Source: Glycomyces buryatensis (lineage in GTDB: Bacteria > Actinomycetota > Actinomycetes > Mycobacteriales > Micromonosporaceae). From it: a stretch of DNA of 64,000 nt. Both the position numbers and the translations under genes were made by a program. The stretch spans positions 62,001-126,000 of the forward strand of contig NZ_STGY01000010.1 in NCBI RefSeq assembly GCF_004912275.1. The letters run 5' to 3'. Positions 43,352-63,161 of this stretch are shown piece by piece. The first letter of the stretch is position 1; the number at the start of each line of letters is the position of its first letter. Below the pieces are notes generated by a model. That model was given only the letters and a program-made list of their open reading frames with translations, did no database searches and had not been told where the DNA came from.

Positions 43352-43490
43352 GTCTATCCCTTCCGTTAGGTGAATCGGTTAATCCCAACCTGTCGGATAG
43401 ACAATCATAAATACGGACCAAACTCAACCTTGGGGCGTCACGGACATTTTGCCCGCGTGCGTACGCAGGGACGGGGCTCGCGGGTAATCG

Positions 43491-44540
43491 CTACGCGACA
43501 GCCGTGCGCGCCGGGGCGGGGCCCGTCGAGCCCCGGGGGAGGAGCTGCGCCGGCTCGCACTGCACCGAGAACGTCCGGCTCTCCATGCTCTGCTCCTGAC
43601 CGATGACCGAGAGCAGCAGATCGGAGACTTTCGAACCGTACGAAGGGATATCGCGGGTCAAGGTGGTCAGTGACGGGTGCGTCAAGCGGCACAGCGGCGA
43701 GTCGTCCCAGGCCACGATGGACACATCGTGCGGGACCTTGAGCCCCAGCTCATGGGCGACATTGAGGCCGGCCACCGCCGTCACGTCATTGTCGTAGAGG
43801 ATCGCCGTCGGCATCGGACGCGACGTCAGCAGCCGCCTGGTCAGCCTCGCCCCCTCCTCGCCGGTGTAGTCCCCGTGGACGATCTCGACGTTCTCGAAGC
43901 CCAACTCGCCCACCGGCTCATCGAAGGCGCCGTCGCGGATCGACGTGTGCAGCAGGCCCTCGATGCCCGCCACCCGGGCAATGCGCCGGTGCCCCAGCGT
44001 GTGCAGGTACCGCAGCACCTGCCAGACCGGCTCGACGTCGTCGTGCCACACGAAGGGGATCACCGGCTCCGCGAGCGGCCCGCCGATGGCGACGGCGGGC
44101 AGTCCCATCGCCGCCACGGCCTGCGGCCTCGGATCGCTCAGCTTGATGTCGCACAGCAGCACCCCGTCCACCCGGCGCTCAGCCCACCAGCGCCGATAGA
44201 CGTCCAGTTCCTCCTCGGTGGAGCCGACGATCTGGAGTGTCAGGCCGAACGAATTCGCCGAGAGCGTCGCCTCGATGCCGCTGATGAGCTCCATGAAATA
44301 CGGCTCGATGCCCAGCGTGCGGGCGTCGCGGCACAGTGCCAGGCCCACCGCCTGCGCCGAGGACACCGACAGCGACCGCGCCGCCCGGTTGGGCACGAAG
44401 CCCATCTCGGCGGCGATGGCCAGGATCCGCTCCCGCGTGGCGGCCGAGACGCCCGGCCTTCCATTGAGCGCGTAGGAGACAGCGCCCTTGGACACGCCGG
44501 CGGCGATGGCGATGTCGGTAATGGTCGGGCGTCTGGACAT
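43491..44540 (-). CDS. LacI-family transcriptional repressor (paralogue 1)
   Basis: 349 residues. The helix-turn-helix and hinge occupy about 1-60 (TITDIAIAAGVSKGAVSYALNGRPGVSAATRERIL ... AARSLS), followed by a periplasmic-binding-type sugar domain ending in VSIVAWDDSPLCRLTHPSLTTL. GGAG precedes the ATG. It is divergent from the aldo/keto reductase gene with an AACCGGTT operator in between. It is very similar along its length to the LacI protein at 45784-46857, with the same FMELISGIEA and LYDNDVTAVAGL segments. The inducer is probably a mannan-derived sugar. Confidence 0.92.
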   Translation of the reverse strand: MSRRPTITDIAIAAGVSKGAVSYALNGRPGVSAATRERILAIAAEMGFVPNRAARSLSVSSAQAVGLALCRDARTLGIEPYFMELISGIEATLSANSFGLTLQIVGSTEEELDVYRRWWAERRVDGVLLCDIKLSDPRPQAVAAMGLPAVAIGGPLAEPVIPFVWHDDVEPVWQVLRYLHTLGHRRIARVAGIEGLLHTSIRDGAFDEPVGELGFENVEIVHGDYTGEEGARLTRRLLTSRPMPTAILYDNDVTAVAGLNVAHELGLKVPHDVSIVAWDDSPLCRLTHPSLTTLTRDIPSYGSKVSDLLLSVIGQEQSMESRTFSVQCEPAQLLPRGSTGPAPARTAVA

Positions 44541-44679
44541 GATGGGCTCCTCGTCTGCGTGCCGACGCGGCGCTGGCAGGGCGGCCAGGTCGCCGCGACC
44601 GCCACATGGTGATTGTCGCCGACTGCTCTCGGGCGGAAGAATAGGTTGCGCTCCCATGGGTGGGCGCGGCGACCGCTGG

Positions 44680-44691
44680 TGAACCGGTTCA
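44680..44691. promoter_or_regulatory. LacI-type operator between repressor and aldo/keto reductase
   Basis: TGAACCGGTTCA is a perfect 12-bp palindrome, 47 nt before the aldo/keto reductase ATG and 139 nt before the lacI ATG. The AACCGGTT core matches the operators of the two transporter promoters at 52.6 and 53.0 kb. Confidence 0.65.
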
Positions 44692-44738
44692 GATGATACG
44701 CTCGCCCAAATTCCCCCCAAAGTCCTACAAGGAGCGCT

Positions 44739-45737: not shown

Positions 45738-45797
45738 TGATCAACGGCCGCGAGACAGCATTGGCGATCGACCCTCGCCCGCCTCAACGCGGCCTAG
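45714..45797 (+). repeat. Duplicated aldo/keto reductase 3' end
   Basis: The last 24 nt of the reductase gene (45714-45737, ending in TAG) recur at 45774-45797 with one change. The second copy lies 60 nt downstream and contains the stop codon of the second lacI gene on the other strand. A recombination or slippage event at this junction is likely. Confidence 0.85.
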
Positions 45798-46857
45798 AGG
45801 GTTGGGCACGAGCGGGCATCGGCTGGGGCGCGGCCCCGGTCGATGCCCGCGGCGTCAGCTGCGGCCGCGGGCACTGCACCGAGAGCCCGGCCGGATCAGC
45901 CTGCGCCGACCGGTCCCCGATGACCCGCAGCAGCACCTCGGCCGCCGTCGCCCCGTACGAGTGCGTGTCCCGGCTCAGCGCCGTCAGGGCCGGGTGGGTC
46001 AGTCGGCACAGCAGCGAGTCGTCCCACGCCACCACCGACAGATCGCGAGGCACCGCGAAGCCCAGCTCGTGCACGACCCCGAGCCCGGCTATGGCCATGA
46101 CGTCGTTGTCGTAGACGATCGCGGTCGGGCGCTCTGGCCCGGTCAGCATCCGCCTGGTCAGGCGCGTGCCCTGCTCGCCGGTGTAGTCCCCGTGGACGGT
46201 CGCGACGGCCTCGAAGTCCAGCGCCGCCGCGGCCCGGTCGAACGCCGCGTCCCGCACCGCCGTGTGCAGCAGGTGCGACATCCCGCCGACCCGCGCGATC
46301 CGCCGGTGCCCCAAGACGTACAGGTAGTCCAGGACCTCCCGGCACGGCTCGGCGTCGTCGTGCCACACCGTCGGGACCGGCGACCCCTCCACCGGCCCGC
46401 CCACCGTCACCGCCGGAAGCCCCAGCTGCGCGACCACCGCCATGCGGCGGTCCTCGACCCCGACGTCGCACAGCAGCACCCCGTCGACCCGCCGCTCACC
46501 CCACCAGCGCCGGTACACCTCCAGCTCCTCCTCGACCGAATCGACGATCTGGAGCGTCAGGCCGTACGCGTCGGTCGACAGCGCCGCCTCGATGCCGCTG
46601 ATGAGCTCCATGTAGAACGGCTCGATGCCGAGCGTGCGGGCCGAGCGGCGCAGCGCGATCCCCACCGCCTGCGCCGAGGACACCGACAGCGAGCGGGCGG
46701 CCCGGTTCGGGACGTACCCCATCTCGGCGGCGATGGCCAGGATCCGCTCCCGGGTGGCCGGAGAGACGCCGGGCCGCCCGTTCAGCGCATACGACACCGC
46801 ACCCTTGGACACGCCGGCGACCGCGGCGATGTCGGCGAGGATCGGGCGTCTGGACAT
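45784..46857 (-). CDS. LacI-family transcriptional repressor (paralogue 2)
   Basis: 357 residues, very close to the LacI protein at 43491-44540: PILADIAAVAGVSKGAVSYALNGRPGVSPATRERIL, FYMELISGIEAAL, YRRWWGERRVDG, IVYDNDVMAIAGL, VVAWDDSLLCRLTHPALTAL. The recognition helices are nearly identical, so the two probably bind the same operators. The effector domain differs more, suggesting a different inducer. The C-terminus (PARAQPSRPR) is encoded partly by the duplicated reductase end. AGGAG precedes the ATG. It lies after the five-gene transporter operon, separated by two hairpins. Confidence 0.92.
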   Translation of the reverse strand: MSRRPILADIAAVAGVSKGAVSYALNGRPGVSPATRERILAIAAEMGYVPNRAARSLSVSSAQAVGIALRRSARTLGIEPFYMELISGIEAALSTDAYGLTLQIVDSVEEELEVYRRWWGERRVDGVLLCDVGVEDRRMAVVAQLGLPAVTVGGPVEGSPVPTVWHDDAEPCREVLDYLYVLGHRRIARVGGMSHLLHTAVRDAAFDRAAAALDFEAVATVHGDYTGEQGTRLTRRMLTGPERPTAIVYDNDVMAIAGLGVVHELGFAVPRDLSVVAWDDSLLCRLTHPALTALSRDTHSYGATAAEVLLRVIGDRSAQADPAGLSVQCPRPQLTPRASTGAAPQPMPARAQPSRPR

Positions 46858-46971: not shown

Positions 46972-47859
46972 TCAGCCGACCGACGCCACCCAGTGGCGCT
47001 CGTCGACCTTCGTCAGCGGTGCGGGCGGGCGCGAGCGGTCGCCGTCGGGTTCCAGCTCCACGACCGGGATCGGATTCTCCGACCACTTGGTGTGCAGCTG
47101 CGGCACCGAGGCGAGCAGGTTGCGCGAGTAGGGATGCCGGGGGTCGCCGAAGACCTTCCCGGTCGCCCCGGTCTCCACGATCGCGCCGTGCCGCATGATG
47201 ATCACGCGCTCGGAGATGTAGTTCGCGAGCGACAGGTCGTGCGTGACGAACAGGACCGCCAGGCCCCGCTCCTTCAGGCTGCCCAACAGGTTGAGCACGT
47301 CGATGCGGGTGGAGGCGTCGAGCATCGAGATGATCTCGTCGGCCACCAGCACCTTGATGTCCAGCAGCAGCGCCCGCGCGATGAGCATTCGCTGCAACTG
47401 GCCGCCCGAGAGCTGGTGCGGGTACTTGCCCAGGACGGCGCCCGCCTCGAGCCCGACCGACTGGAGCGAATCCTCGACCTTCGAATCCCACTCCGAGCGC
47501 TTCACGCGCGGGAAGTAGGACTCCTTGACCATCTCCAGCACCCTGTCCGCCCGGAAGATCGGGTTGTAGCTGCTGAACGGGTCCTGGAAGACGCCCTGGA
47601 CGTTGCGGTAGTACTCCTTCAGGCCCCGCTTGCCGGTCTTGGTGATGTCCTCGCCGTCCAAGCGGATGGCGCCCTTGGAGACCGAGATCAGTTGCAGCAC
47701 CATCTTCCCGACGGTCGTCTTGCCGCTGCCAGACTCGCCGACGACCGAAAGCACCTCGCCCGGCGCGATCGAGAAGCTGACATCGCGCACCGCGGTGAGC
47801 TTCTTCGAGCCGAGCGAGCCGACCCGGTAGGACTTCCACACTTTCTCAAGTTCGAGCAT
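46972..47859 (-). CDS. ABC transporter ATPase, DppF/OppF type
   Basis: 295 residues. Walker A is VGESGSGKTTVGKM, the Q loop VFQDPFSSYNP, the signature YPHQLSGGQLQRM, and Walker B KVLVADEIISML, with His in VTHDLSL. The usual DE pair of Walker B is kept. The C-terminal 50 residues hold the PYSRNLLASVP motif of oligopeptide and oligosaccharide importers. The ATG at 47857-47859 follows GGGGA within a duplicated 52-bp segment. It hydrolyses ATP for the permeases upstream in the operon. Confidence 0.9.
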   Translation of the reverse strand: MLELEKVWKSYRVGSLGSKKLTAVRDVSFSIAPGEVLSVVGESGSGKTTVGKMVLQLISVSKGAIRLDGEDITKTGKRGLKEYYRNVQGVFQDPFSSYNPIFRADRVLEMVKESYFPRVKRSEWDSKVEDSLQSVGLEAGAVLGKYPHQLSGGQLQRMLIARALLLDIKVLVADEIISMLDASTRIDVLNLLGSLKERGLAVLFVTHDLSLANYISERVIIMRHGAIVETGATGKVFGDPRHPYSRNLLASVPQLHTKWSENPIPVVELEPDGDRSRPPAPLTKVDERHWVASVG

Positions 47860-47946
47860 GTCGGTTCCCCAACTTCCAGCCGGCGGCCTGCGGGTTCTCA
47901 AGTTCGAGCATGTCAGTCCTCCAACTTCCAGCAGGCGGCCTGGTGG
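47843..47946 (-). repeat. 52-bp tandem duplication at the ATPase gene junction
   Basis: 47843-47894 and 47895-47946 agree at 46 of 52 positions. Each copy holds the end of the first ATPase gene and the start of the second (ATG-CTC-GAA). The upstream copy now has an ATG (47909-47911) right after the first ATPase stop, with GGAGG before it. That ATG opens a 21-codon frame (47846-47911) that runs through and past the real start in another frame. Confidence 0.85.
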
Positions 47947-48866
47947 CCGCCGTCGACGTCGACCATCGGCGGCTGCTCGGCGCACTCGTCCGAGGCCAGC
48001 GGGCACCTGGCCCGGAACCGGCATCCGGTCGGCGGATTGAGCAGCTGCGGCGGCTTGCCGGGGATGCTCTTGAGGCGCTTGTCCCCGTACTCCAGGCCCA
48101 CCTCGGGCAGCGCCGAGATCAGCGCCTTGGTGTAGGGATGCTTGGGCGCCTTGACGATCGTCTCGGCCGGGGCCTTCTCCACAATGCGCCCGGCGTACAT
48201 GATCATGATGGTGTCGGCGATCTGGTAGACCAGCGACAGGTCGTGGGTCACCACGATCATGCTCTTGACGAACTCCATGTCGCGGAAGCGCACCAGGGTC
48301 TCGGCCACGGCCTTCTGGTTCGACACGTCCAGGGCCGAGGTGATCTCGTCGGCGATGAGCAGGCTCGGATCCAGCAGGGTCGACAGGACCATGACCATCC
48401 GCTGCTTCATGCCGCCGGACAGCTCGATCGGGTAGTTGTCGAGCACCCGCTCGGGCAGGCCCACCAGCTCCAGGCGGTGCACCAGTTCGTCCTTGAGGTT
48501 GCGATAGGACAGTCCGCGCGAGCGCAGCAGGTCCGCGATCATCTTGCCGATCCGCCGGGTCGGGTTCATCGCGCTCATCGAGTACTGCGGGATGATCGAC
48601 ACGTCCTTGAACCGGTGCTTGTTCATCGCGCGGTCGTTGCCGATGGGCAGCTCGTCCCCGTCGAGCAGGACGTTCCCGCCGACGTGCCGCATGCGCCCGT
48701 CGAGGCGGATCAGGCTTTTGCCGAGCGTGGTCTTGCCGCACCCGGATTCGCCCGCGAGCCCGACGATCTCGCCGTCCGCGATGGAGAAGCTGACCCCGTC
48801 CAGGGCGCGCACGTCGCCCTTCGTGGTCCGGTAGTGGACCCGCAGATCATTCACGTCAAGGGCCAT
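47913..48866 (-). CDS. ABC transporter ATPase, DppD/OppD type
   Basis: 317 residues. Walker A is LAGESGCGKTTLGKS, the Q loop IIPQYSMSAMNP, the signature YPIELSGGMKQRM, Walker B SLLIADEITSAL. The C-terminus has the cysteine-bearing PPTGCRFRARCPLASDEC segment typical of peptide-type importers, where an iron-sulfur or disulfide site is often found. The ATG is 2 nt after the permease stop. The signature reads GGMKQR, as in OppD. The operon order is SBP, B, C, D, F. Confidence 0.92.
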   Translation of the reverse strand: MALDVNDLRVHYRTTKGDVRALDGVSFSIADGEIVGLAGESGCGKTTLGKSLIRLDGRMRHVGGNVLLDGDELPIGNDRAMNKHRFKDVSIIPQYSMSAMNPTRRIGKMIADLLRSRGLSYRNLKDELVHRLELVGLPERVLDNYPIELSGGMKQRMVMVLSTLLDPSLLIADEITSALDVSNQKAVAETLVRFRDMEFVKSMIVVTHDLSLVYQIADTIMIMYAGRIVEKAPAETIVKAPKHPYTKALISALPEVGLEYGDKRLKSIPGKPPQLLNPPTGCRFRARCPLASDECAEQPPMVDVDGGHQAACWKLED

Positions 48867-48868
48867 GA

Positions 48869-49750
48869 TCACTTCTCCCTGAGTTTCGGGTTGAAGACCT
48901 CGTCCAGGCCGACATTGGTGATGTACAGGCCGCCGACGATCAAGGTGATCGCCGCGCCCGGCGGCACGAACCACCACCACAGGCCCAGGTGGAGGGAGCT
49001 CCAGGCCATCGCCTGCTGCATCATCGAACCCAGCGACACCGAATTCGACGGCCCCATCCCGATGAAGTCGAGCATCGCGGCGAACAGGATCGCGCCGCCG
49101 AACAGGAGGATCACCGACATCAGCAGGTACGACGCCATGTTCGGCATGATCTCCCGCATGATGATCTGCCCCGGGCGCTTGCCAGTCAGCTTCGCCAGGT
49201 CCACATAGTCCCTATTGCGGAGCGTGAACGTCTGCGCGCGAACGGCCCTCGCCACCCACGGCCACGAGAACAACCCGATGATGACCGCCTGCGAAATGAC
49301 GCCGCGAACCTCCAGATAGGAGGAGATCACGATGAGCACCGCCAGCGCCGGGAGTACCAGCACCACGTTGGTCAGCATGTTCAGGAACTCGTCCACCAGA
49401 CCGCCCCGGTAGCCGGCGGTGAAGCCCACGGACATGCCGATGACGAACGCGATCAACCCGCCCAGCGAACCCACCAGATAGGACGAACGCAGGCCGTGCA
49501 CGAACTGCGTGAACACGTCCTGCCCGAAGTAGGTGGTGCCGAGCCAGTGGTCCGCCGATGGCGCCTCCGACTTCGGCCCGATGTACTCGTTCGGCGTGGC
49601 GCTCAAGAAGAACGGGCCGATGACGCCGAGCAGCGCCAGGCCGACCACGATGGTGAGCCCGATGAGCACCTTCGGATTGCGCAGCGCGAAGTACAGGTTC
49701 TCGCGGCGCTGGCCGACGGTGTCGGCCGTGAGCATGACGTCGGTGGTCAT
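48869..49750 (-). CDS. ABC transporter permease, DppC/OppC type
   Basis: 293 residues with six helices. The EAA loop is near DYVDLAKLTGKRPGQIIMREIMPNMASYL, and the N-terminal lead (NPKVLIGLTIVVGLALLGVIGPFF) is the family's. The WLGTTYFGQDVFTQFVHGLRSSY segment is a hallmark of the C subunit. It starts at ATG 49748-49750, overlapping the B subunit stop by 4 nt. It forms half of the channel. Confidence 0.92.
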   Translation of the reverse strand: MTTDVMLTADTVGQRRENLYFALRNPKVLIGLTIVVGLALLGVIGPFFLSATPNEYIGPKSEAPSADHWLGTTYFGQDVFTQFVHGLRSSYLVGSLGGLIAFVIGMSVGFTAGYRGGLVDEFLNMLTNVVLVLPALAVLIVISSYLEVRGVISQAVIIGLFSWPWVARAVRAQTFTLRNRDYVDLAKLTGKRPGQIIMREIMPNMASYLLMSVILLFGGAILFAAMLDFIGMGPSNSVSLGSMMQQAMAWSSLHLGLWWWFVPPGAAITLIVGGLYITNVGLDEVFNPKLREK

Positions 49751-50742
49751 GAGACGCCTCCTTCGAGTCCGAGCCGGGTGCGGGGGTCGACCAGGACGTA
49801 GACCACGTCGGCCAGGAAGTTGAACAGGAGCACCCCGATGACGATGAACAGCAGGATGCCTTGGAGCAGGAAGAAGTCCTGGTTCTGGATGGCGTTGAGC
49901 AGGAGGGACCCGAGGCCCGGATAGGCGAAGACGACCTCGGTGACCAGGGCCCCGCCGACGACGACGCCGAGCTGGAGGGCGAGGCCGGAGATCTGGGGGA
50001 GCATGGCGTTGCGGAAGGCATAGCGCCGCACCAGCCTCCGCGGGGCGCCCAGCGCCTGGAGGTAGTTGGAGTAGTCCGACTCCAGTTCGTAGATCACCAG
50101 GTTCCGCATGCCGATCGCCCAGCCGCCGAGGGCGACGAGGAACAGCGACAGGAACGGCAGGACCCAGTGGTGGAACAGGTCGACGATGAAGACCCAGGTG
50201 AACGACGGCCGCAGCGCGAAGCTGTAGCCGCCGGCGACGGGGAACCAGCCGAGGATGACGCCGCCGACCCAGGCCAGCAGGATCGCCAGCCACATGTAGG
50301 GCACGGCGGTCAGGAGGTAGCTGGCGGGGAGGGCGGTGTTGTCGAGCCACTTCGAGCGGGCGGCCACGGCGCCGAGGCTGTTGCCGACGAACCACGACAG
50401 CAGGATGGACGGCAGCAGGAGCCCGAGCGTGTAGGGCAGCGCGTCGAGGATGATCGAGGTGACCGGCGAGGGGAACGCGAAGACGCTGACCCCCAGGTCT
50501 CCCTTGAAGAGGGCGGCCCAGTAGTTGAGGTACTGCTGCCACAGGGGGACGTCGAGTCCGAACAGGTCGGTGAAGTAGACCCGCATGGCCTCGGAGGATT
50601 CGACGTTCGCGACCTTGTTGCGGGTGAGCATGCGCGCCACCGGGTCTCCGGGCATGAGCCGGGGGATGGCGAAGTTGATGGTGACGGCGATGAAGAAGGT
50701 GACGCCGTAGATGAGGAGTTTGCGCCGGAAGTAGCGGCCCAT
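49747..50742 (-). CDS. ABC transporter permease, DppB/OppB type
   Basis: 331 residues: a first helix (LLIYGVTFFIAVTINFAIPRLMPGDP), a periplasmic stretch with FGLDVPLWQQYLNYWAALFKGDLGVS, five further helices, and the EAA loop in SNYLQALGAPRRLVRRYAFRNAMLP. RLMPGDP and the GDLG motif identify the B subunit. It heads the permease part of the operon, 71 nt after the binding-protein gene and its hairpin. ATGA overlap with the C subunit. Confidence 0.92.
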   Translation of the reverse strand: MGRYFRRKLLIYGVTFFIAVTINFAIPRLMPGDPVARMLTRNKVANVESSEAMRVYFTDLFGLDVPLWQQYLNYWAALFKGDLGVSVFAFPSPVTSIILDALPYTLGLLLPSILLSWFVGNSLGAVAARSKWLDNTALPASYLLTAVPYMWLAILLAWVGGVILGWFPVAGGYSFALRPSFTWVFIVDLFHHWVLPFLSLFLVALGGWAIGMRNLVIYELESDYSNYLQALGAPRRLVRRYAFRNAMLPQISGLALQLGVVVGGALVTEVVFAYPGLGSLLLNAIQNQDFFLLQGILLFIVIGVLLFNFLADVVYVLVDPRTRLGLEGGVS

Positions 50743-50813: not shown

Positions 50814-52535
50814 TTATCCGGCGCTCTCGAGCTGCGTGAGCATGTAGATCGAGCCCATGCCGAACATCTCGTTCCACACCGAGGGGTAGACCCCGGGGGT
50901 GTCGCCGTCACCGGACGGCCAGTTCGTCCACACCTGGTTCGAGGACTGGGCCCAGACGCCGTTGTACCAGATCGGGATCGCCGGCATCTCCTCCATGGAG
51001 ATGCGTTCGAGTTCGGCAATGATCTCGGCGTAGTGCGGGTCGTCGGTGGCGGTGGCCGCCAGTTCCTGGGTCAGCTGCCAGGCCTCCTCGTTCTCGATGC
51101 GGGAGAAGTTGGCGGTGCCCTGGTTGTCCTGGACGGGCAGCTGGTAGAGGTACCGGTAGTGGCCCCACGGCGAGTTGGTGATGCCGCTCCAGTTGTTCAG
51201 CATCAGCTGGAAGTCGCCGGTGGTGCGGGCGTCGTCCACGGCGCCGGCGTCGATGAACTCCTCGGTGACGTTGATGCCGACGTCGCGCAGGTCCTCGGCG
51301 ATGGAGCGCGAGGCCTCTTCCCAGTCGGTCCAGCCGCTGGGCACGTTGAGGGTCATGGAGACCGCCTCGCCGTCGAGGTTCTCGACGAAGCCGTCGCCGT
51401 CCGAGTCCTCGTAGCCGGCGTCGGCCAGGATGGTCTGGGCGTCGGACGGCTCGAACTGGAAGCCTGCCTCCGAGATGGCGCCCTGGTCGTAGAAGTCCTG
51501 CCAGATCGGCAGCAGACCGGTCGGGCTGGCCTCGGAGACGATGCCGGAGTAGACCGAGTCCACGATCTCGCCAGGGCTGATGGCGAAGGCCATGGCGCGG
51601 CGGAACTCGGGGTCGTCCAGGGGCTTGATCGTGGTGTTCGGGATGAGCATCGCCGTGTTGGCCGAGGCCATGTACGGGGCCTCGGAGTAGTAGGTGCTCA
51701 GGGTCGGGTCGCCTTCGAGGAGGTCGGAGATCCCGGGCAGGAAGTTGTTGGACAGGTCGATCTCGCCCTGGATGAGCTGGTTGAGGGTGACCTCGTTGCT
51801 GGTGTTGACGATGTCGACGATGTAGGTCGGCTTGACCTCCAGGTCGAGCGCCTCGGTGGCCCACCAGTCGTCGCGCTTGACCCAGGCGATGCGGTCCTGG
51901 TCGTAGCTGTGGACGGTGTAGGGGCCGGAGACGACCGGGTCCTCGTTCGCGCCGGTAAGGATCTCGTCCTCGGAGTACTCGGCGAAGACGTGCTCGGGCA
52001 CGATCTCGGTGGTGAACAGGAAGTTGTCCCATTCCTGGTGGCGCGCTTCGTCGAAGGTGAACCTCACGGTGAGATCGTCGACGACTTCGACGCCGGCGAG
52101 CCAGTCCCACACGTTCGCGTAGGGCACGGCCTCGATCTGACCGAGTTCGACGGTGTACTTGACGTCGTCGGCGGTCATCTCCTCGCCGTCGCTCCAGGTG
52201 ATCCCGTCGCGCAGTTTGAGCTCGAAGACCAGGTCCTCGGTCCACTCGCCCGACTCGGCCAGCCAGGGGGAGAGCTCCTGGGTGTTGGGGTCGAACAGGT
52301 ACAGCGTCTCGTACCCGAGTCCATTGAGGCCGGTGGCCTGGCCGGGGTTGACGGGGTTCCAGTCGCTGGGCGGCTCCCAGGCGGTACCGGTCGTGTAGAG
52401 GGTTTCATTGCGGGGGAACTGCTCGATTGACAGGTTCTCGGGATCTTCGCTGCTGCCGGAGTCGGTGCAGGCGGCCGCGAGGGCCAATGTGCACGCGGCC
52501 GCGAGGGCGATCGCCGCTTTGCTTCGGTGTCGCAT
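50814..52535 (-). CDS. ABC substrate-binding lipoprotein, family 5
   Basis: 573 residues. The lipobox is LALAAAC (Cys23). Family-5 features are LYTTGTAWEPPSDWNP, LRDGITWSDGEEMTADDVKYTVE, SGPYTVHSYDQDRIAWVKRDDWW and FRRAMAFAISPGEIVDSVYSGI. This family carries peptides but also beta-gluco- and beta-manno-oligosaccharides in several bacteria. The many Trp residues of the cleft (for example PSDWNP, VWDWLAG, SPWGHYRY) fit sugar stacking. Being next to mannan-degrading genes, I infer a manno- or gluco-oligosaccharide ligand. It is first in the operon. Confidence 0.9.
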   Translation of the reverse strand: MRHRSKAAIALAAACTLALAAACTDSGSSEDPENLSIEQFPRNETLYTTGTAWEPPSDWNPVNPGQATGLNGLGYETLYLFDPNTQELSPWLAESGEWTEDLVFELKLRDGITWSDGEEMTADDVKYTVELGQIEAVPYANVWDWLAGVEVVDDLTVRFTFDEARHQEWDNFLFTTEIVPEHVFAEYSEDEILTGANEDPVVSGPYTVHSYDQDRIAWVKRDDWWATEALDLEVKPTYIVDIVNTSNEVTLNQLIQGEIDLSNNFLPGISDLLEGDPTLSTYYSEAPYMASANTAMLIPNTTIKPLDDPEFRRAMAFAISPGEIVDSVYSGIVSEASPTGLLPIWQDFYDQGAISEAGFQFEPSDAQTILADAGYEDSDGDGFVENLDGEAVSMTLNVPSGWTDWEEASRSIAEDLRDVGINVTEEFIDAGAVDDARTTGDFQLMLNNWSGITNSPWGHYRYLYQLPVQDNQGTANFSRIENEEAWQLTQELAATATDDPHYAEIIAELERISMEEMPAIPIWYNGVWAQSSNQVWTNWPSGDGDTPGVYPSVWNEMFGMGSIYMLTQLESAG

Positions 52536-52616: not shown

Positions 52617-52667
52617 ACTTAACCGGGTCAGTGACGCCACTGAATCACGCATTCACGAGGCTGTCAA
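52617..52667 (-). promoter_or_regulatory. Promoter and operator of the peptide-type transporter operon
   Basis: On the minus strand TTGACA (52662-52667) and TTCAGT (52639-52644) are 17 nt apart. After 6 nt comes the palindrome ACTGACCCGGTTAAGT (52617-52632), covering the expected transcription start. Binding there would block initiation. Confidence 0.7.
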
Positions 52668-52939
52668 GCAGGCGACATGCGGAATTATCCGCCCCATGTC
52701 AGGCGCAAGATGACATCGCTCCCAGTTGGGCGCGCGCACCACACGGGTCTACATTGCACTCTTTCTGTCCGACTTGAAGTGTAGTCAAAGTCCATGTACC
52801 AGCAGGTCAATGGTGATATGGCGGAACGAGAATGGGCGGTATGGAACCGATACTCATCAATGTCTCGGCTTCGACGCAGGTCCGCGGCTCGGTTCATCGA
52901 CACACTTGATTTCGATTCGATCACAGTGCTATCAAGATA

Positions 52940-52990
52940 TTGACGTATTTCGACATCACGGCTAGGTTCAGGTCACTTATCCGGTTAAGT
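52940..52990 (+). promoter_or_regulatory. Promoter and operator of the CUT1 mannan-sugar operon
   Basis: TTGACG (52940-52945) and TAGGTT (52963-52968) are 17 nt apart. After 6 nt comes ACTTATCCGGTTAAGT (52975-52990), palindromic except for one base pair. The geometry is the same as in the opposite promoter at 52617-52667. Confidence 0.72.
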
Positions 52991-53033
52991 CTCGCCGGGT
53001 AAACCCTCACCTCTGAACGGAGTGACCCTCACC

Positions 53034-54305
53034 GTGATCTCAAAAACCAAGCGCCTGGGTGCGGCGGCGGCCGCGGCCGCGGTAGCGCTCACCGCCGCGG
53101 CCTGCTCGGACGGTGGATCCGGCGGCGCCGGGACCTCCATGGAAGAAGAAGACGTCGACACCATCACCGTGTGGCACACCGGTGACGAGACCCAACTGCC
53201 CATGATCGAGGCCGTCGGCGAGCTCTTCGAGGCCGAACACGGCGTCAAGGTCGAAGTCGAGACCCTCGACTGGGCGGACGCCCACGCCCAGATCCTCACC
53301 GCCATCCAGAGCCAGGACGGCCCCGACATCTTCACCGGCGGCCTGTCCTGGGGCATCGAGTTCGGCGAGAAGGGCGGCCTGGTCGACCTGCGCGACTACG
53401 ACACCCAGAACCTCGAGGACAATGTCATCGAGGGACTGTGGAACTCGATCGAGTCGCCTGGCGGCGAGCTCTACGGCGTCCCCCTCAACATGACCACGTA
53501 CTCGATGTTCTACCGCTCCGACATCCTCGAAGAGGAGGGCATCGAGGTCCCCGGCACCTGGGACGAGATGGACGCGGCCATCACCGAGCTCCAGGGCGCC
53601 GGCTACGAGACCCCGTTCGCCGCCACCTGGGAGCCCATCGGCTGGCTCGACTGGTTCAACTACATGCACGAGGCCGGCGGCTCCCTCTACAACGAGGACT
53701 GCACCGAGGTTCTGGTCGACTCTCCCGAGGTCGTCGCCGGCACCGAGTACTGGGCCAAGCGCTTCACCGACCAGAACGTCCCCACCGACCAGCCCGACCT
53801 GGGCGCCGGCATGGACAAGGGCGAGTACGTGTTCGCCACCGGCGGCTCCTGGAATTACGACGTCCTCGCCGCCGGCTTCCCCGAGCTGGAAGGCAAGTGG
53901 AGCTCCGCGCCCCTCCCGGCCGGACCGGCCAACGCGGGCAGCTTCATCGGCGGCAACGTCATGGGCGTCATGCTCGACTCCGAGGCTCCGGGCACCTCCG
54001 CCGCCTTCATCGACATGGTCTACTCCGACGAGGGCGTCGCCGCCTCCCTGGCCGCAGCCGAAGCGGAAGACACCCTGTGGCTGCCGCCGCGCACCGACAA
54101 GGTCGCCGACACCCACCTCAGCGAGGACAATAAGGCCGCCCTGACCGAGATCTTCGAGACCTCCGTGGGCCCGCCGAACTGCGCCGGTTGGGAAGAGGCC
54201 TCCCCGAACGTCCAGCGCGCCCTCCAGACCATCGCCCTCGACGGCGCGAGTGTCGAGGAAGGCCTGGCCGAGGCCAAGGCCGAGATGGAAGCCACCCTCA
54301 AGTAG
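53034..54305 (+). CDS. ABC substrate-binding lipoprotein, family 1 (CUT1)
   Basis: 423 residues from GTG at 53034 (GGAG 11 nt upstream); GTG at 53022 is a possible alternative. The lipobox is ALTAAAC (Cys24). The fold is that of MalE-type proteins: ITVWHTGDETQLPMIEAVGELFEAEHGVKVEV, NMTTYSMFYRSDILEEEGIEVP, FIGGNVMGVML and a C-terminal helix with ALQTIALDGASVEEGLAEAKAEM. It probably binds short manno-oligosaccharides for the permease genes downstream. A cysteine pair may form a disulfide in DC...NC. Confidence 0.9.
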   Translation: MISKTKRLGAAAAAAAVALTAAACSDGGSGGAGTSMEEEDVDTITVWHTGDETQLPMIEAVGELFEAEHGVKVEVETLDWADAHAQILTAIQSQDGPDIFTGGLSWGIEFGEKGGLVDLRDYDTQNLEDNVIEGLWNSIESPGGELYGVPLNMTTYSMFYRSDILEEEGIEVPGTWDEMDAAITELQGAGYETPFAATWEPIGWLDWFNYMHEAGGSLYNEDCTEVLVDSPEVVAGTEYWAKRFTDQNVPTDQPDLGAGMDKGEYVFATGGSWNYDVLAAGFPELEGKWSSAPLPAGPANAGSFIGGNVMGVMLDSEAPGTSAAFIDMVYSDEGVAASLAAAEAEDTLWLPPRTDKVADTHLSEDNKAALTEIFETSVGPPNCAGWEEASPNVQRALQTIALDGASVEEGLAEAKAEMEATLK

Positions 54306-54318
54306 GACGAGCGACGGG

Positions 54319-54340
54319 AGGAGCCCCCGCTTCGGCTCCT
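54319..54340 (+). terminator. Hairpin after the CUT1 binding-protein gene
   Basis: A 7-bp perfect stem AGGAGCC (54319-54325) with GGCTCCT (54334-54340) and an 8-nt loop, in the 114-nt gap before the permease gene. It occupies the same operon position as the hairpin at 50774-50803 and may likewise attenuate. Confidence 0.45.
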
Positions 54341-54419
54341 GCGCCGGGCCCCTTCCGCCCCCTCCCCGACTCCCCTTCTGCCTCCGCTTCCAGAACGCGA
54401 CCAGCCTCGGAGAACCGCC

Positions 54420-56452: not shown

Positions 56453-58891
56453 TTGAGTACCAAGCGAAACCTGCACGACGGTTGGACCCTCTCGGGCGGG
56501 CGGGAAGGCCAGATCGAAGTCGACGGCCTCCCCGCGGCCGTCCCGGGAAGCGTCCACACCGACCTGCTGGCGGCCGGGCTCATCACCGACCCGTACGTCG
56601 ACCAGGCCGAAACGGAAACGGCCTGGATCGGCCGCACCGACTGGACCTACCGCCTCGCCTTCGAGGCCGGCGCCGAACCCTTCGACGGATCCGATCTGGT
56701 CTTCGACGGGCTCGACACCGCCGCCCGGATCAGCCTCAACGGCGCATGTCTCGGCGAGACGGCGAACATGCACCGCCGCTACCGCTTCGACGTGCACGAC
56801 TTGATCCGCGAGGGCCGCAACGAACTCGAGGTCCACTTCACCGCCCCGTACACCTACGCCCAGGCACAGCGTGATCGCCTCGGCGACCTCCCCAACGCCT
56901 ACCCCGAACCGGGCAACTTCATCCGCAAGGCCGCCTGCAACTTCGGTTGGGACTGGGGCCCGAACCTGGCCGGCGCCGGCCTCTGGCGGTCGGTCCGGTT
57001 GGAGCGGTGGAACATCGCCCGTATCGATGCCGTCGTCCCGCGCGTCACCGTCGAAGACGGGCGCGGCATCGTGGACCTGGAAGTGCGGCTGCACAAGGCC
57101 GTCGCGACCGATGTCGAGCTGGTGTGCGCGCTGGCCGGCACCGAGCGAAGCGTCCGCGTGACGGCCGGCGAGGACCGCGCCCAGGTCCGGCTCGAACTCG
57201 ACGACCCGCAGCTGTGGTGGCCGATCGGCCACGGAGACCAGCCGCTCTACGGCCTCGCCGTGGCCCTGCTCGCCCACGGCCAAGAGCTCGACTCCTGGAC
57301 CAAGCGGATCGGCTTCCGCACCGTCGAGCTCGACACCGAACCCGACGGCGAGGGCCGCCCCTACACTCTCAAGATCAATGGAAAGCCGGTGTGGGTCAAG
57401 GGCGTCAACTGGATCCCCGACGAGGCCCTGTTCTCCCGCATCGACGCCCCCCGCCTGCACCGCCGCCTCGCGCAGGCCGTGGACGCGAACGTCAACTACG
57501 TCCGCGTCTGGGGCGGCGGCATCTACGAGTCCGAGGACTTCTACGACCGCTGCGACGAGCTCGGGCTCCTCGTCGGCCAGGACTTCCTGTTCGCCTGCGC
57601 CGCATACCCCGAGGAGGAACCGTTCTGGTCCGAGGTGGCGGCCGAGGCCCGCGACAACCTCGAACGCCTCACGCCGCACCCGTCCCTGGTGACCTGGACC
57701 GGCAATAACGAGAACATCTGGGGCTGGCACGACTGGGACTGGCGGGACGGATTCTCCGACCGCACCTGGGGCTCGGGCTACTACTACGACCTGCTCCCCA
57801 AGCTCGTGGAGACCGTGGACGGCACCCGCCCGTACTGGCCCGGCAGCCCCTACTCCGGCGAGCGCGACCTCCACCCCAACGACCCCGCGCACGCCTCCAT
57901 GCACATCTGGGACGTGTGGAACGACCTCGACTACACCCACTACCGCGACCAGAGGCCGCGCTTCGTCGCCGAGTTCGGCTACCAGGCGCCGCCGACCTGG
58001 GCCACGGTGCGGCGCATGGTCACCGACGAACCGCTCGAGGCCGAGTCGCCCAATATGCTGTGGCACCAGAAGGCCATGGACGGACAGGCGAAACTCCAGA
58101 GAGGACTGGAGGCGCACCTGCCGCCCGTCCGGGACTTCGACGACTGGCTCTACTTCACCCAGGTCAATCAGGCCCGGGCGCTGCGGCTCGGCATCGAGTA
58201 CTTCCGCTCGCTCCAGCCCCACTGCATGGGCGCGATCATGTGGCAGCTCAACGACTGCTGGCCCGTCACGTCCTGGGCGGCCGTCGACGGCGAGGAGCGC
58301 AAGAAGCCCCTGTGGTACGCGCTCAAGGACGTCTTCGCCGATCGCCTGGTCACCTTCCAGCCGGATGACGAGGGCAAGGGCGAGGGCGTGAAACTGGTGG
58401 CCGTCAACGACTCCGACGAGCCCTGGAACGACGTCGTCGGCTTCTGGAAGTGCTCCGCCGAGGGCCGCATCCTCGGCCGCGCCCTGCTCAAACTCGAAAT
58501 CGGCGCTCGGGACAGCGCCACCGTCGAACTGCAAGAAGGGTCCGTCCCCACCGGCGGCGAATTCCTCATCACCGGCACCGAGTCCTTCCCCCGCGCCACC
58601 TGGTTCTCCAAGGAGGACAAGGACATGGACTGGGCCAAGGCGCACTGGACGGCCGAGGCCCGCCCGGTCGACGGAGGCGTGGCCGTCACGGTCACGGCCG
58701 AGACCGTCCTGCGCGACCTGTGCCTGTTCCCCGACCGCCTCGACCCCGACGCGGCAGTGGACCGCGCCCTCGTGACCCTGATCCCCGGCGAGCAGGCGAC
58801 CTTCACCGTGACGAGCGAGGCGCTGGCCGCCGACCCCGCCAAGTGGGAGGCCCTGTGCGCCAAACCGGTCCTGAGGGCGGTCAACGACTGA
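56453..58891 (+). CDS. GH2 beta-mannosidase
   Basis: 812 residues from TTG at 56453 (AGGAG 4 nt upstream). The layout is that of GH2: a sugar-binding jelly roll (residues 1-180, with RKAACNFGWDWGP, a beta-mannosidase signature), an immunoglobulin-like domain, and a TIM barrel. In the barrel the acid/base is Glu420 in TGNNENIWGW and the nucleophile Glu507 in FVAEFGYQAP. C-terminal beta domains follow. No signal peptide, so it removes mannose from imported oligosaccharides in the cytoplasm. It is the last gene of the CUT1 operon. Confidence 0.94.
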   Translation: MSTKRNLHDGWTLSGGREGQIEVDGLPAAVPGSVHTDLLAAGLITDPYVDQAETETAWIGRTDWTYRLAFEAGAEPFDGSDLVFDGLDTAARISLNGACLGETANMHRRYRFDVHDLIREGRNELEVHFTAPYTYAQAQRDRLGDLPNAYPEPGNFIRKAACNFGWDWGPNLAGAGLWRSVRLERWNIARIDAVVPRVTVEDGRGIVDLEVRLHKAVATDVELVCALAGTERSVRVTAGEDRAQVRLELDDPQLWWPIGHGDQPLYGLAVALLAHGQELDSWTKRIGFRTVELDTEPDGEGRPYTLKINGKPVWVKGVNWIPDEALFSRIDAPRLHRRLAQAVDANVNYVRVWGGGIYESEDFYDRCDELGLLVGQDFLFACAAYPEEEPFWSEVAAEARDNLERLTPHPSLVTWTGNNENIWGWHDWDWRDGFSDRTWGSGYYYDLLPKLVETVDGTRPYWPGSPYSGERDLHPNDPAHASMHIWDVWNDLDYTHYRDQRPRFVAEFGYQAPPTWATVRRMVTDEPLEAESPNMLWHQKAMDGQAKLQRGLEAHLPPVRDFDDWLYFTQVNQARALRLGIEYFRSLQPHCMGAIMWQLNDCWPVTSWAAVDGEERKKPLWYALKDVFADRLVTFQPDDEGKGEGVKLVAVNDSDEPWNDVVGFWKCSAEGRILGRALLKLEIGARDSATVELQEGSVPTGGEFLITGTESFPRATWFSKEDKDMDWAKAHWTAEARPVDGGVAVTVTAETVLRDLCLFPDRLDPDAAVDRALVTLIPGEQATFTVTSEALAADPAKWEALCAKPVLRAVND

Positions 58892-59007: not shown

Positions 59008-61002
59008 ATGCACCTCTCATCCGCCCGCGCGCGACGCCGCGCGGTCCTCACGGCCGGCGCGGCGGCGGTCGCGGCATCGAGCCTCGGGGCCCCGGCATCC
59101 GCCGAGGCCGCCGCGACACGGATCCGGATCGTCGACGACCGGGCCACCGAGCAGACCCGCGCCCTCTTCCAGTACCTGCTCGACATGCAGGGCCAGGGCA
59201 TCATGTTCGGCCACGAACACAGCCTGTCCGACGGGTTCACCTTCGACGCGATGGACGGCCACGCCTCCGACGTCGAGGCCACGACCGGCGACTACCCCGC
59301 CGTCTTCGGCTGGGACACCTTGATCCTCAACGGTTTCCAGAAGCCCGGCGTGTACGGCGGCACCGTCGAGGAGAACATCGAAGCCCTCACCTACGCGCTG
59401 GAGACCAGCGACGCACGCGGCGGGATCAATGTCCTCAGCGCCCACCTGTACAACTTCGTCACCGGTGGGGACTTCTGGGACACGGGCGGCCGGGTGGTCG
59501 GTGAGATTCTGCCCGGCGGTTCCAAGCACGCCGATTTCAACGAGTTCCTCGACCGCATCGCCGCGGCAGTGGGCGGCGCCGTGCGAAGCGACGGCTCACC
59601 GGTCCCGGTGGTGTTCCGGCCCTTCCACGAGAACAACGGCGGCTGGTTCTGGTGGGGCGCAGGGCACTGCACCTCCGCCGAGTTCATCGAGATCTTCCGG
59701 TACACCGTGGAGTACCTGCGGGATGTGAAGCGGGTGCACAATCTGCTCTACTCCTACTCGCCGGGTGCGTCCTTCGGCGGCGACCCCACGAACTACCTGA
59801 AGACCTACCCGGGGGACGAATTCGTCGACATCCTCGGCTACGACGCCTACGACGGGTCGGCCGGTTCGCCCGAGTGGTTCGCGAGCACGGTCGAGGACCT
59901 GGCCATGGTCGTCGGCCTCGCCGACGAGCGCGGCAAGGTCCCCGCCTTCACCGAGTTCGGCGAGTCCGGCGAGGAGGGCCGCAACCCGACCTGGTTCACC
60001 GAGCTGCTCGCCGCTCTGGCGGACGACGCCGCGGCGAGCCGGATCTCCCACATGCTGACCTGGGCGAACTTCGGCGGCGACAACCGCGCCTACGTGCCCT
60101 ACCCCGGGCATCCCCTGGAAGCGGACTTCGTCGCGTACCACCAGGACCCGTACTCGCTGTTCGCCTCCGACCTGTCGGGCGTGTTCGACTCGCCCACCTC
60201 GCCGGTCGTGAACCCGCCGTTCCTGCACCTGGTGACCCCCACCGACCGCCAGCGCGTCACGACCGCCGAGACGGTGATCCGGGTGCGCACGACCGGCGGC
60301 CGGGCCAAGCACGTGACCTATGCGGTCGACGGCGGCGATCCGGTGCCGCTGTGCCTGGACGATGATGGCTTCTACTCGGCGACCTGGTCGATCGATCCGT
60401 CCTGGCTGGACAACCGCTCGGTCACCCTCAGCGTCACCGCGAAGGTGAAGGGCAAGCGGCACACCGACTCCGCGTTGGTGCTGCTCGGCGAGGTCGAACC
60501 GCTCCCGGCCGGATGGGTGGACGACTTCGAGGGCTACGCCGGCGACGACGTCAGCCTCTCGGAGGCCTACAGCCACGTCAATGCCAACACCACCGCGCTC
60601 TCGGCCGAGCACAAGGCCGGCGGCTCCTACGGGCTGGCGTACTCGTACGACTTCGCCTCCGCCGGGTACACCGGCATCGGGAAGTCGGTCAATGCCGACT
60701 GGACGGCGTTCTCCACCATGGGGATGTGGCTCCAGGGCGATGGCTCGACCAATGGCGCGACGCTCCAGATCGTGGCGAACGGCGCGTACTTCGAGTACAA
60801 CGTCCCGCTCGGCAATACACAGGGGCAGCAGATCCTGGCCCCGTTCACCGAGTTCGCCCCGGCGCCGTGGGACACCGGCCACGCCGATGAGGTGCTGGAC
60901 GCCGAGCACCTTGCGAACGTGGCGACGTTCAACCTTTACCTCGGACACGGCGGCGGTGCGTCGACAGGCACCGTCTACGTGGACGATATCCGGGCCGAAT
61001 AG
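59008..61002 (+). CDS. Secreted GH26 beta-mannanase with C-terminal binding module
   Basis: 664 residues. The Tat-type signal (RARRRAVLTAGAAAVAASSLGAPASA) ends near residue 32. GH26 barrel: IMFGHEHS, YPAVFGWD, the acid/base Glu208 in FRPFHENNGGWFWWG, the nucleophile Glu316 in FTEFGESG. A beta domain (about 405-500) and a C-terminal module (about 505-664, from WVDDFEGYAGDD) of the CBM23-like, mannan-binding type follow. It would cut mannan outside the cell, complementing the GH5. AAAGGAG precedes the ATG. Confidence 0.92.
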   Translation: MHLSSARARRRAVLTAGAAAVAASSLGAPASAEAAATRIRIVDDRATEQTRALFQYLLDMQGQGIMFGHEHSLSDGFTFDAMDGHASDVEATTGDYPAVFGWDTLILNGFQKPGVYGGTVEENIEALTYALETSDARGGINVLSAHLYNFVTGGDFWDTGGRVVGEILPGGSKHADFNEFLDRIAAAVGGAVRSDGSPVPVVFRPFHENNGGWFWWGAGHCTSAEFIEIFRYTVEYLRDVKRVHNLLYSYSPGASFGGDPTNYLKTYPGDEFVDILGYDAYDGSAGSPEWFASTVEDLAMVVGLADERGKVPAFTEFGESGEEGRNPTWFTELLAALADDAAASRISHMLTWANFGGDNRAYVPYPGHPLEADFVAYHQDPYSLFASDLSGVFDSPTSPVVNPPFLHLVTPTDRQRVTTAETVIRVRTTGGRAKHVTYAVDGGDPVPLCLDDDGFYSATWSIDPSWLDNRSVTLSVTAKVKGKRHTDSALVLLGEVEPLPAGWVDDFEGYAGDDVSLSEAYSHVNANTTALSAEHKAGGSYGLAYSYDFASAGYTGIGKSVNADWTAFSTMGMWLQGDGSTNGATLQIVANGAYFEYNVPLGNTQGQQILAPFTEFAPAPWDTGHADEVLDAEHLANVATFNLYLGHGGGASTGTVYVDDIRAE

Positions 61003-61280: not shown

Positions 61281-63161
61281 ATGAACCCTCCTGTCAGCCG
61301 CCGCAATCTGCTCGCCGCCACCTCCATCGCCGCCGGAGCCGCCGTGATTCCCCAGGCCGCCGCCCATGCCGAGCGAGGCCGTCCCGCCAGGGCATTCGGC
61401 GATTACGGCTCTCCCGCCGCGCGCCTCGACTCCGGCACCGTCTACGTCGATGCGGCGGGCAAGGGCGACTTCACGACCGTGCAGGCCGCCGTCGACGCCG
61501 CCACCGCCGGGACCACCGTCGTCCTCGCCGCGGGCGAATACCGCGAGCGCGTCACGGTGCCCTCCAGCCTCGCCGACCTGACCTTCATCGGCGCCACCGA
61601 CGACCCCGAAGACGTCGTCATCGTCTACGACCTCGCCGCCGGTTCCCCCGATCCGGACGACCCCGACGGCGGCACCGTCGGCACCTCCGGCTCGACCACC
61701 GTGCAGCTCAACGGACCCGGCTTCACCGCCCGGTGCGTCACCTTCGCGAACGACTGGCTCCGCGCCGACCACCCCGAGGTCACCGGCACCCAAGCGGTCG
61801 CCTGCAAGGTCCAGGGCGACCGCTCGGCGTTCTACCGCTGCCGCTTCCTCGGCCACCAGGACACGCTGTACGCCAACAGCCCCTCGGGCAGCTCGGTCGC
61901 GCGCCAGTACTACCGCCAGTGCCACATCGAAGGCGACGTCGACTTCATCTTCGGGCGCGGCACGGCCGTGTTCGACCGCTGCGAGATCCACATGCTCGAC
62001 CGCGATGTCTCGTTCACTCCCAAGGGAATGCCGTTCGCGCCGTCCACTTCGAGGGCCTTCGACCACGGCTACCTCGCGAGCGAATGCCGCTTCACCTCCG
62101 GCGCCGAGGACGGGGCGTACAAGCTCTCCCGGCCGTGGGTTCCCAGCTCCGACGCCACCGCCTGGCCCGCGCTCGTCATCCGCGACAGCTGGATCGGCCC
62201 TGGCATCGACGCGGCCGAGCCGTACACGAATATGAGGGACGAGCACCCCTGGCAGGACCAGCGGTACTACGAGTACGCGAACATCGGCCCCGGCGCCGAG
62301 ATCGTCGACCCCGCCACCCGCCCGCCGCAGCTCACCGAGGAGCAGACCACCGAGCATTCCGTCGTCGGCTACCTGGGCGACTGGGACCCCTACGACGAGC
62401 CCGACCTGACCTTCTCCGCGCGCCAGAGCTTCACGGTGTACGTTTCCGGCGACTCCACCGCCTCCGCCTACGCCGAGGCCCGGGAGCCGCGCGTCGGCTG
62501 GGGCCAGGCGCTCCCGGTCTTCACCGGGCAGCGGGTCGAGGTGGACAACCGGGGCTGGTCGGGCGCGAGCTCCAAGAGCTACGCGGACGCGGGCGTGCTC
62601 GACGCCGTCGGCGCTCAGCTCCGGCCGGGCGACTGGTTCCTGATCTCCTTCGGCCACAACGATCAGAAGGTCGACGATCCGGACCGGGGCACCGATCCCT
62701 GGACGACCTACCAGCAGTACCTGCGCACCTACGTCGAGACGGCGCGCCTGCGCCAGGCCCACCCGGTCCTGGTGACCTCGGTGGAGCGGCGCCGGTTCCG
62801 CGACGGCCACGCCTACGAGAGCCTGGGGGAGTACCCCGAGGCGATGAAGGACCTGGCCGACAAGGAGGGCGTCCCGCTGGTCGACCTCCACGCCCTCAGC
62901 CTGGCGCTGTGGGAGCAGGTCGGCGAGGAGGCCAGCAAGGACCACTTCCTGTGGCTCGACGCCGGCCACCCGAACTACCCCGACGGCATCGCCGACAACA
63001 CCCACTTCCAGGCGAGGGGCGCGATCGAGGTCGCCCGCCTGATCGCGAAGGAAGCCGACCGCCAGAGCCTCCTCCCGACCGGCTCCTGGGCCGATCTCGA
63101 CCGCGACGTCCCCGAAGAGGAGATCGACTGGCCCGAATCGGTCGCGCAACCGCCGCTGTAG
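61281..63161 (+). CDS. Pectinesterase (CE8) fused to SGNH esterase (CE12-type)
   Basis: 626 residues. The Tat signal is SRRNLLAATSIAAGAAV. The N-terminal half is a beta-helix pectin methylesterase with YVDAAGKGDFTTVQAAVDAA, GHQDTLYANS and GDVDFIFGRG (the two catalytic aspartates) and KLSRPWVPS. From about residue 385 a rhamnogalacturonan-acetylesterase-type domain follows: VSGDSTASAY (Ser), SFGHNDQK, and DAGHPNYPDGIADNTHF (Asp and His). One chain would thus remove methyl and acetyl esters from pectin outside the cell. Confidence 0.92.
   Translation: MNPPVSRRNLLAATSIAAGAAVIPQAAAHAERGRPARAFGDYGSPAARLDSGTVYVDAAGKGDFTTVQAAVDAATAGTTVVLAAGEYRERVTVPSSLADLTFIGATDDPEDVVIVYDLAAGSPDPDDPDGGTVGTSGSTTVQLNGPGFTARCVTFANDWLRADHPEVTGTQAVACKVQGDRSAFYRCRFLGHQDTLYANSPSGSSVARQYYRQCHIEGDVDFIFGRGTAVFDRCEIHMLDRDVSFTPKGMPFAPSTSRAFDHGYLASECRFTSGAEDGAYKLSRPWVPSSDATAWPALVIRDSWIGPGIDAAEPYTNMRDEHPWQDQRYYEYANIGPGAEIVDPATRPPQLTEEQTTEHSVVGYLGDWDPYDEPDLTFSARQSFTVYVSGDSTASAYAEAREPRVGWGQALPVFTGQRVEVDNRGWSGASSKSYADAGVLDAVGAQLRPGDWFLISFGHNDQKVDDPDRGTDPWTTYQQYLRTYVETARLRQAHPVLVTSVERRRFRDGHAYESLGEYPEAMKDLADKEGVPLVDLHALSLALWEQVGEEASKDHFLWLDAGHPNYPDGIADNTHFQARGAIEVARLIAKEADRQSLLPTGSWADLDRDVPEEEIDWPESVAQPPL

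Follow-up and report, generated by a model that had tools for sequence, protein, structure and literature searches.

The window, a 64,000-nucleotide stretch of a Glycomyces buryatensis contig, contains a beta-mannan locus in which two transporter operons diverge, one encoding a peptide-type ABC transporter and a LacI protein and the other a CUT1 transporter and enzymes of glycan breakdown (Table 1). Among the closest structures of the peptide-type SBP, 4pfu/5hm4 carry the name 'mannoside ABC transport system, sugar-binding protein', and for the GH5 protein the top structural match is 4fk9, whose name refers to its binding domain. The closest solved relatives of the CUT1 SBP include none that is mannan-specific, so the substrate of this transporter is deduced from its neighbours; CUT1 SBPs at five other Glycomyces loci are 79-84% identical to the one in the window. 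No ATPase gene was seen among the CUT1 transporter genes (53022-56332), which are presumably served by a shared MsiK-type ATPase. The pectinesterase-GDSL fusion is possibly the last gene of the CUT1 operon and, if its function may be guessed, possibly a mannan deacetylase. The two putative repressors, LacI-A and LacI-B, each combine an N-terminal LacI helix-turn-helix with an effector domain of the periplasmic-binding-protein type, and residues 6-343 of the 357 in LacI-B align with 4o5a and with the LacI, PurR and CcpA structures.

Table 1. Features of the mannan locus in the window, with strand and the basis of, or a remark on, each assignment.
Feature	Position	Strand	Basis or remark
GH5 endo-beta-mannanase	42035..43351	-	structural relatives 3wsu, 1bqc named beta-mannanase
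Weaker operator-like site GATTAACCGATTCACC	43369..43384	-	directly upstream of GH5 mannanase
LacI-A repressor	43491..44540	-	PF00356 + PF13377; recognition helix as in LacI-B
Weaker operator-like site TCTGAACCGGTTCACC	44678..44693	-	between the starts of LacI-A (44540) and the divergent aldo/keto reductase (44739), upstream of both
Aldo/keto reductase	44739-45737	+	between the two LacI genes, opposite strand
LacI-B repressor	45784..46857	-	PF00356 + PF13377; left operon
Peptide-type ABC ATPases	47913-48866, 46972-47859	-	within 46972..50742
Peptide-type ABC permeases	49747-50742, 48869-49750	-	within 46972..50742
Peptide-type SBP	50814..52535	-	best PDB relatives 4pft, 1vr5, 4pfu/5hm4
Peptide-operon candidate operator ACTGACCCGGTTAAGT	52632..52617 (= 52617..52632)	-	sequence; mismatch counts
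Peptide-operon -10 TTCAGT	52644..52639 (= 52639..52644)	-	TG-N in front (extended -10)
Peptide-operon -35 TTGACA	52667..52662 (= 52662..52667)	-	sequence; promoter comparison
CUT1 -35 TTGACG	52940..52945	+	sequence; promoter comparison
CUT1 -10 TAGGTT	52963..52968	+	sequence; promoter comparison
CUT1-operon candidate operator ACTTATCCGGTTAAGT	52975..52990	+	sequence; mismatch counts; genus sites
CUT1 SBP	53022..54305	+	best solved relative 5ysb (Lin1841)
Two CUT1 permeases	54420-55388, 55388-56332	+	first: Pfam match; second: frame and orthologous matches
GH2 beta-mannosidase	56453..58891	+	right operon
GH26 endo-beta-mannanase with CBM11	59008..61002	+	right operon
Pectinesterase-GDSL esterase fusion	61281..63161	+	preceded by a 279-bp gap

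An earlier, sequence-only reading of this DNA had proposed that both promoters take the form TTGAC-N17-(-10), with a 16-mer beginning 6 nt downstream, and this is exact to the base: the CUT1 promoter reads TTGACG-N17-TAGGTT-N6-ACTTATCCGGTTAAGT on the + strand (52940 to 52990), and the peptide-transporter promoter reads TTGACA-N17-TTCAGT-N6-ACTGACCCGGTTAAGT on the - strand (52667 to 52617). The 16-mers also have the position and the CCGG centre that it gave them, but the palindromes that it described are imperfect, with 7/8 (ACTTATCCGGTTAAGT) and 6/8 (ACTGACCCGGTTAAGT) base pairs as counted by eye. Because the -10 hexamers are weak (each is 3/6 identical to TATAAT) and a sigma-70 consensus scan called neither window promoter, the assignment of the promoters rests on conservation. 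An even palindrome with a central CpG suits a LacI-family operator, and both window sites are CCGG-centred palindromes of this kind that lie upstream of sugar genes. When up to three mismatches are allowed, these two candidate operators are the only matches in the window, where shuffles lead one to expect 0.02, and nowhere else in the whole genome (5.8 Mb) is there a place 1-2 mismatches away from the symmetric consensus. Another three places in the genome, with 3 mismatches, were rejected as operators, their number being at the level of the reversed-pattern control (four), with none standing above it.

Upstream of the CUT1 -35 element, comparison by eye picked out a conserved stretch (52913-52939) resembling CAATTCGGTCACGGTGCGGTCAA, which also stands before the CUT1/GH2 promoters of L062, L065, L066, L073-L076, L079 and L080 and was not seen in the promoters of the peptide-type transporter; it is possibly the site of a second regulator. 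Looping between the paired operators was considered and set aside, since by hand reckoning their spacing keeps no common helical phase; the two operators are 358 bp apart in the window and 233-252 bp apart in 10 further intergenic regions that contain the pair.

Across the genus, 25 sites with at most two mismatches are spread over 16 of the 22 Glycomyces genomes, compared with none in the 22 for the reversed-pattern control. All 25 lie upstream of genes for beta-mannan uptake or degradation, which answers positively the check proposed in the sequence-only reading, that hits should fall only near glycan genes. When window proteins were mapped onto the surrounding DNA, 21 of the 25 were found to precede the peptide-type SBP, the CUT1 SBP or GH2, a count that includes a site in G020 (L082:92; C223:92) whose faced gene is off the contig and which has the peptide-type transporter on its other side. 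This site and L083:126, likewise from G020, lie at contig ends in near-identical context and may be one site, although each is included in the total of 25 and again among the 33 sites considered below. The remaining four, in G004 and G009, precede a GH26 mannanase homologue (two) and a GH134 protein (two), and these GH26 and GH134 sites deviate from CCGG at the centre; GH134 is a family of beta-1,4-mannanases (PMC4646033, which describes Man134A). The peptide-type transporter is preceded by a site with 2-4 mismatches in 12 other Glycomyces loci. Of the six genomes with no site at up to two mismatches, four keep one in the expected place with more mismatches, three in G002 and G014 and four in G011 and G017; in G010 there are just two PWM scores near 14, both between GH2 and LacI, and in G007 no PWM score exceeds 5.8.

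In several other species GH2 comes first behind the operator, and in G013 (L074, 8614-9006) the CUT1 permeases match only in short pieces between operator and GH2, so that the CUT1 transporter looks decayed there. At the separate peptide-transporter loci of G008 and G013, mirror-placed second operator-like sites (L085 7331 and L086 7392, with 3 and 4 mismatches) are kept though GH2/CUT1 no longer adjoins; in G008 the next long frame encodes an Hsp70-WD40 protein.

The spacing between promoter and operator is conserved together with the sites. TTGAC starts 34-36 nt before the operator at 27 of the 33 Glycomyces sites that face the peptide-type transporter (13/13), CUT1 (6/6) or GH2 (8/14), compared with a mean of 0.09 and a maximum of 2 in mononucleotide shuffles of the upstream stretches, although the sites are related by descent and this figure, like the Fisher value given below, overstates their independence. 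In other genera TTGAC is found 35-36 nt ahead of the operator at 15 of the 21 sites examined for spacing, out of 27 found. The six Glycomyces sites outside the 33 include L085 and L086, with TTGAC at 36 nt, and two GH26 sites with TTGAC at 37 nt; at the two GH134 sites, no TTGAC was found at this spacing in either orientation. The -10 is TGNTTCAGT in all 13 listed promoters of the peptide-type transporter and TARRTT in all six CUT1 promoters, and the -10-proximal half-site is ACTGACCC in 13/13 of the former and ACTTA(T/C)CC in 6/6 of the latter. The suggestion that the equal spacing in the window is hard to explain by chance is thus borne out, both by the 0.02 matches expected in window shuffles and by the conservation of the spacing in relatives. 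Because this spacing is kept across species and genera, the equal distance is, as judged from sequence comparison, a conserved design that puts the operator over the expected transcription start. In three genomes from one genus of the family (L125-L127, 1490-1516), a site before GH5 lies directly behind TTGAC, so the operator there would sit in the promoter spacer and not 3' of the -10.

At the level of the family, 35 of 200 genomes contain an exact match to the degenerate pattern, compared with one of 200 for the control. At a cut-off of E up to 1e-95, a LacI orthologue is present in 162 of 200; this cut-off is arbitrary in that it scores G032 as negative, whose LacI reaches 3e-83 and stands next to a 2-mismatch site. 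The 35 genomes with an exact site all belong to the 162 that are LacI-positive, leaving none among the 38 scored LacI-negative (Fisher p 5e-4), the LacI and site counts coming from the same kind of draw and from the same genomes as far as these are listed, with 18 of the LacI-negatives unlisted. Since 127 of the 162 LacI-positive genomes have no exact match, the motif evidently drifts. The distance from site to LacI was measured in 17 of the 26 site-bearing non-Glycomyces genomes (the remainder include G083, G098, G117, G122 and G135) and is 114-306 bp in 15 of them; in the other two the site lies 7-9 kb from LacI, at operons of the peptide-type transporter. In G024 and G206 LacI is on the contig of the site, ~184 and ~138 kb away, and in G151 and G176 it is on a different contig. 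Of the distal sites in the family, three stand before GH5 genes, one before a GH26 gene and one before a GH12 gene; strictly speaking, GH12 is not a mannan family. Among 345 genomes drawn from the whole class, 5 match, compared with 2 of 345 for the control; two of the five are inside the family, and of the three outside it, two have a site adjoining a LacI orthologue and then the peptide-type SBP, and G474 has neither.

The exact geometry, its conservation, the nature of the target genes and the co-occurrence with the LacI clade are direct observations; from these we infer binding, repression, the effector and the dimer state, and consider it highly likely that the clade represented by LacI-A and LacI-B binds the 16-mers and represses both divergent operons until released by a sugar. 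The clade would recognise 16-bp operators with ACTKAMCC and GGKTMAGT as consensus half-sites, and these, starting 6 nt past the -10, would span roughly +1 to +16, as lac O1 does. When inducer is absent, a LacI dimer on each operator would block initiation of both operons, that is, of the peptide-type transporter with LacI and of the CUT1 transporter with GH2, GH26 and the esterase. Basal mannanase would then make oligosaccharides, basal transport would import them, and the repressor would be released, the inducer probably being a manno-oligosaccharide such as mannobiose. A different palindrome-binding regulator, for example of the IclR or GntR type, might instead occupy the 16-mers while LacI is merely nearby, and an IclR-type gene does adjoin two of the family sites (L130, L131); however, the regulator gene found repeatedly next to the sites in different genera belongs to this LacI clade, the exact site is absent from all 38 family genomes scored without a LacI orthologue, and the form of the palindrome suits a LacI-family operator, so that we regard this reading as very improbable. 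It is, if anything, slightly less probable still that the palindromes are activator sites or conserved sequence of no regulatory function. The sign of regulation is indeed not given by conservation alone; however, the site occupies, at 27/33 Glycomyces sites and 15/21 in other genera, the fixed lac O1-type place just 3' of the -10 and over the presumed start, which is where a repressor acts, and most members of the LacI family are repressors.

Whether one repressor serves both operons or two paralogues share them bears on the further claim of the sequence-only reading, that a single LacI-type repressor switches off both transporters. In the tree, LacI-A and LacI-B fall on separate branches at the base of the Glycomyces rows, with G021 represented on each, although the fork between the two branches has a support of just 91/74. 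The paralogues might divide the targets, one serving the peptide-transporter operon with its ACTGACCC half-site and the other CUT1 with its ACTTATCC half-site: the half-sites differ consistently between the two (13/13 and 6/6), the separate branches would fit such a division, and G019 has one LacI per locus. We nevertheless think this unlikely. The recognition helix, VSKGAVSYALNGRPGVS, is identical in LacI-A and LacI-B and common to all 25 Glycomyces rows compared, and at E up to 1e-60 only one LacI orthologue is found in 19 of the 22 Glycomyces genomes (more distant LacI proteins may exist), several of these genomes keeping both operator forms. These include G008 and G013, where operators stand at the LacI/GH2 locus (with 4 mismatches in G008) and at the operon of the peptide-type transporter on another contig, the two loci being separated by no less than about 377 and 458 kb, respectively. 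Because a single LacI there faces two distant target loci, this is the arrangement that one repressor for both operons requires, and on sequence grounds it is the strongest argument that a single LacI can act on both. Together with the mannan-linked sites and the conserved spacing, G008 and G013 support the single-repressor claim, and the mannan programme in Glycomyces and its relatives very probably answers to one kind of repressor.

The mechanism looks ordinary and familiar in kind, while the operator and regulon look new when compared by site with CelR and GlyR2; we found no printed description of this operator in the open-licence literature. The lac O1 operator of E. coli lies just 3' of the -10, over the transcription start; the placement here is alike, but here two divergent operons have one operator each. 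For another actinobacterial regulator, SsManR of Streptomyces sp. SirexAA-E (Ohashi 2021), a response to mannose and mannobiose is reported, together with a palindrome of 12 bp that recurs at four sites, alpha-1,2-mannosidases among them. In full form the CelR operator is TGGGAGCGCTCCCA. Variants of TGGGAGCGCTCCCA are given for the CelR/CebR cellulose regulators of actinobacteria in passages of PMC3377646, where, as here, a LacI repressor adjoins an oligosaccharide ABC transporter and a glycosidase, and palindromes also precede dispersed secreted glycanases. In contrast, the site here is a 16-mer, mostly CCGG-centred, at mannan genes and two transporter types, and the Glycomyces operators are ACTKAMCCGGKTMAGT-like and not of the TGGGAGCGCTCCCA type. 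According to passages of PMC8457756, GlyR2 of Clostridium thermocellum is a mannobiose-responsive LacI repressor of man5A and man26A and thus, as proposed here, a LacI-type regulator of mannanase genes; however, it comes from another phylum, the targets described in those passages include no transporter operon, and its site, GTAAnnTTAC, is found in neither window 16-mer. Control of mannoside use by LacI proteins is established as a type: PMC4052901 counts LacI-family ManR groups for mannose and mannosides in 5 lineages, and its main text mentions neither Streptomyces nor mannan nor CCGG. What emerges is a candidate repressor, with its operator and its genes, for the use of beta-mannan by Glycomyces and related actinobacteria, in which separate mannanase genes (GH26, GH134, GH5) are predicted to be targets. 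The findings also suggest that the two transporter types are induced together and point to a portable operator-promoter unit for mannan-inducible expression.

Two weaker sites in the window suggest that LacI-A is autoregulated and that the GH5 mannanase has a weak operator of its own. With a PWM built from 54 sites outside the window (L078:9897 and L083:126 left out), the window operators score 29.6 and 28.2 and TCTGAACCGGTTCACC scores 14.4, where the maxima of 20 window shuffles range from 3.8 to 13.7; a related site precedes LacI in 10 other Glycomyces loci, mostly with low scores (2.8-14.2). GATTAACCGATTCACC, at 7.3, is within the chance range, and together with its surrounding promoter sequence it recurs before GH5 in 19 other Glycomyces loci. 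The aldo/keto reductase was rejected as a member of the regulon: its homologue loci in 8 other Glycomyces (~1.5 kb per side) have no site above 7.3, and the 44678 site is therefore assigned to LacI-A, of which it is a probable autoregulatory site. Since LacI is encoded within or next to the genes that it would regulate and appears to have a weak site of its own, negative autoregulation is likely. Recurrent 4-mismatch hits with the sequence ACTTTCTCGGTTCAGT were discounted, as they fall inside the 3' coding end of LacI and reflect coding conservation. We put forward, tentatively and as a possibility short of even, a graded single-input mannan programme with strong operators at the transporters and weak ones at LacI and GH5, read by two old paralogues that perhaps form mixed dimers. 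Genes for scavenging, uptake and sensing would then switch at different oligosaccharide levels, and the half-site forms of the peptide-type and CUT1 operons would be held apart by selection across the genus.

In G021 the LacI genes are adjacent, as opposed to the window, where the aldo/keto reductase separates them, and in G003 and G020 a homologue of this reductase is found on the contig of the mannan locus, ~9 kb from LacI.
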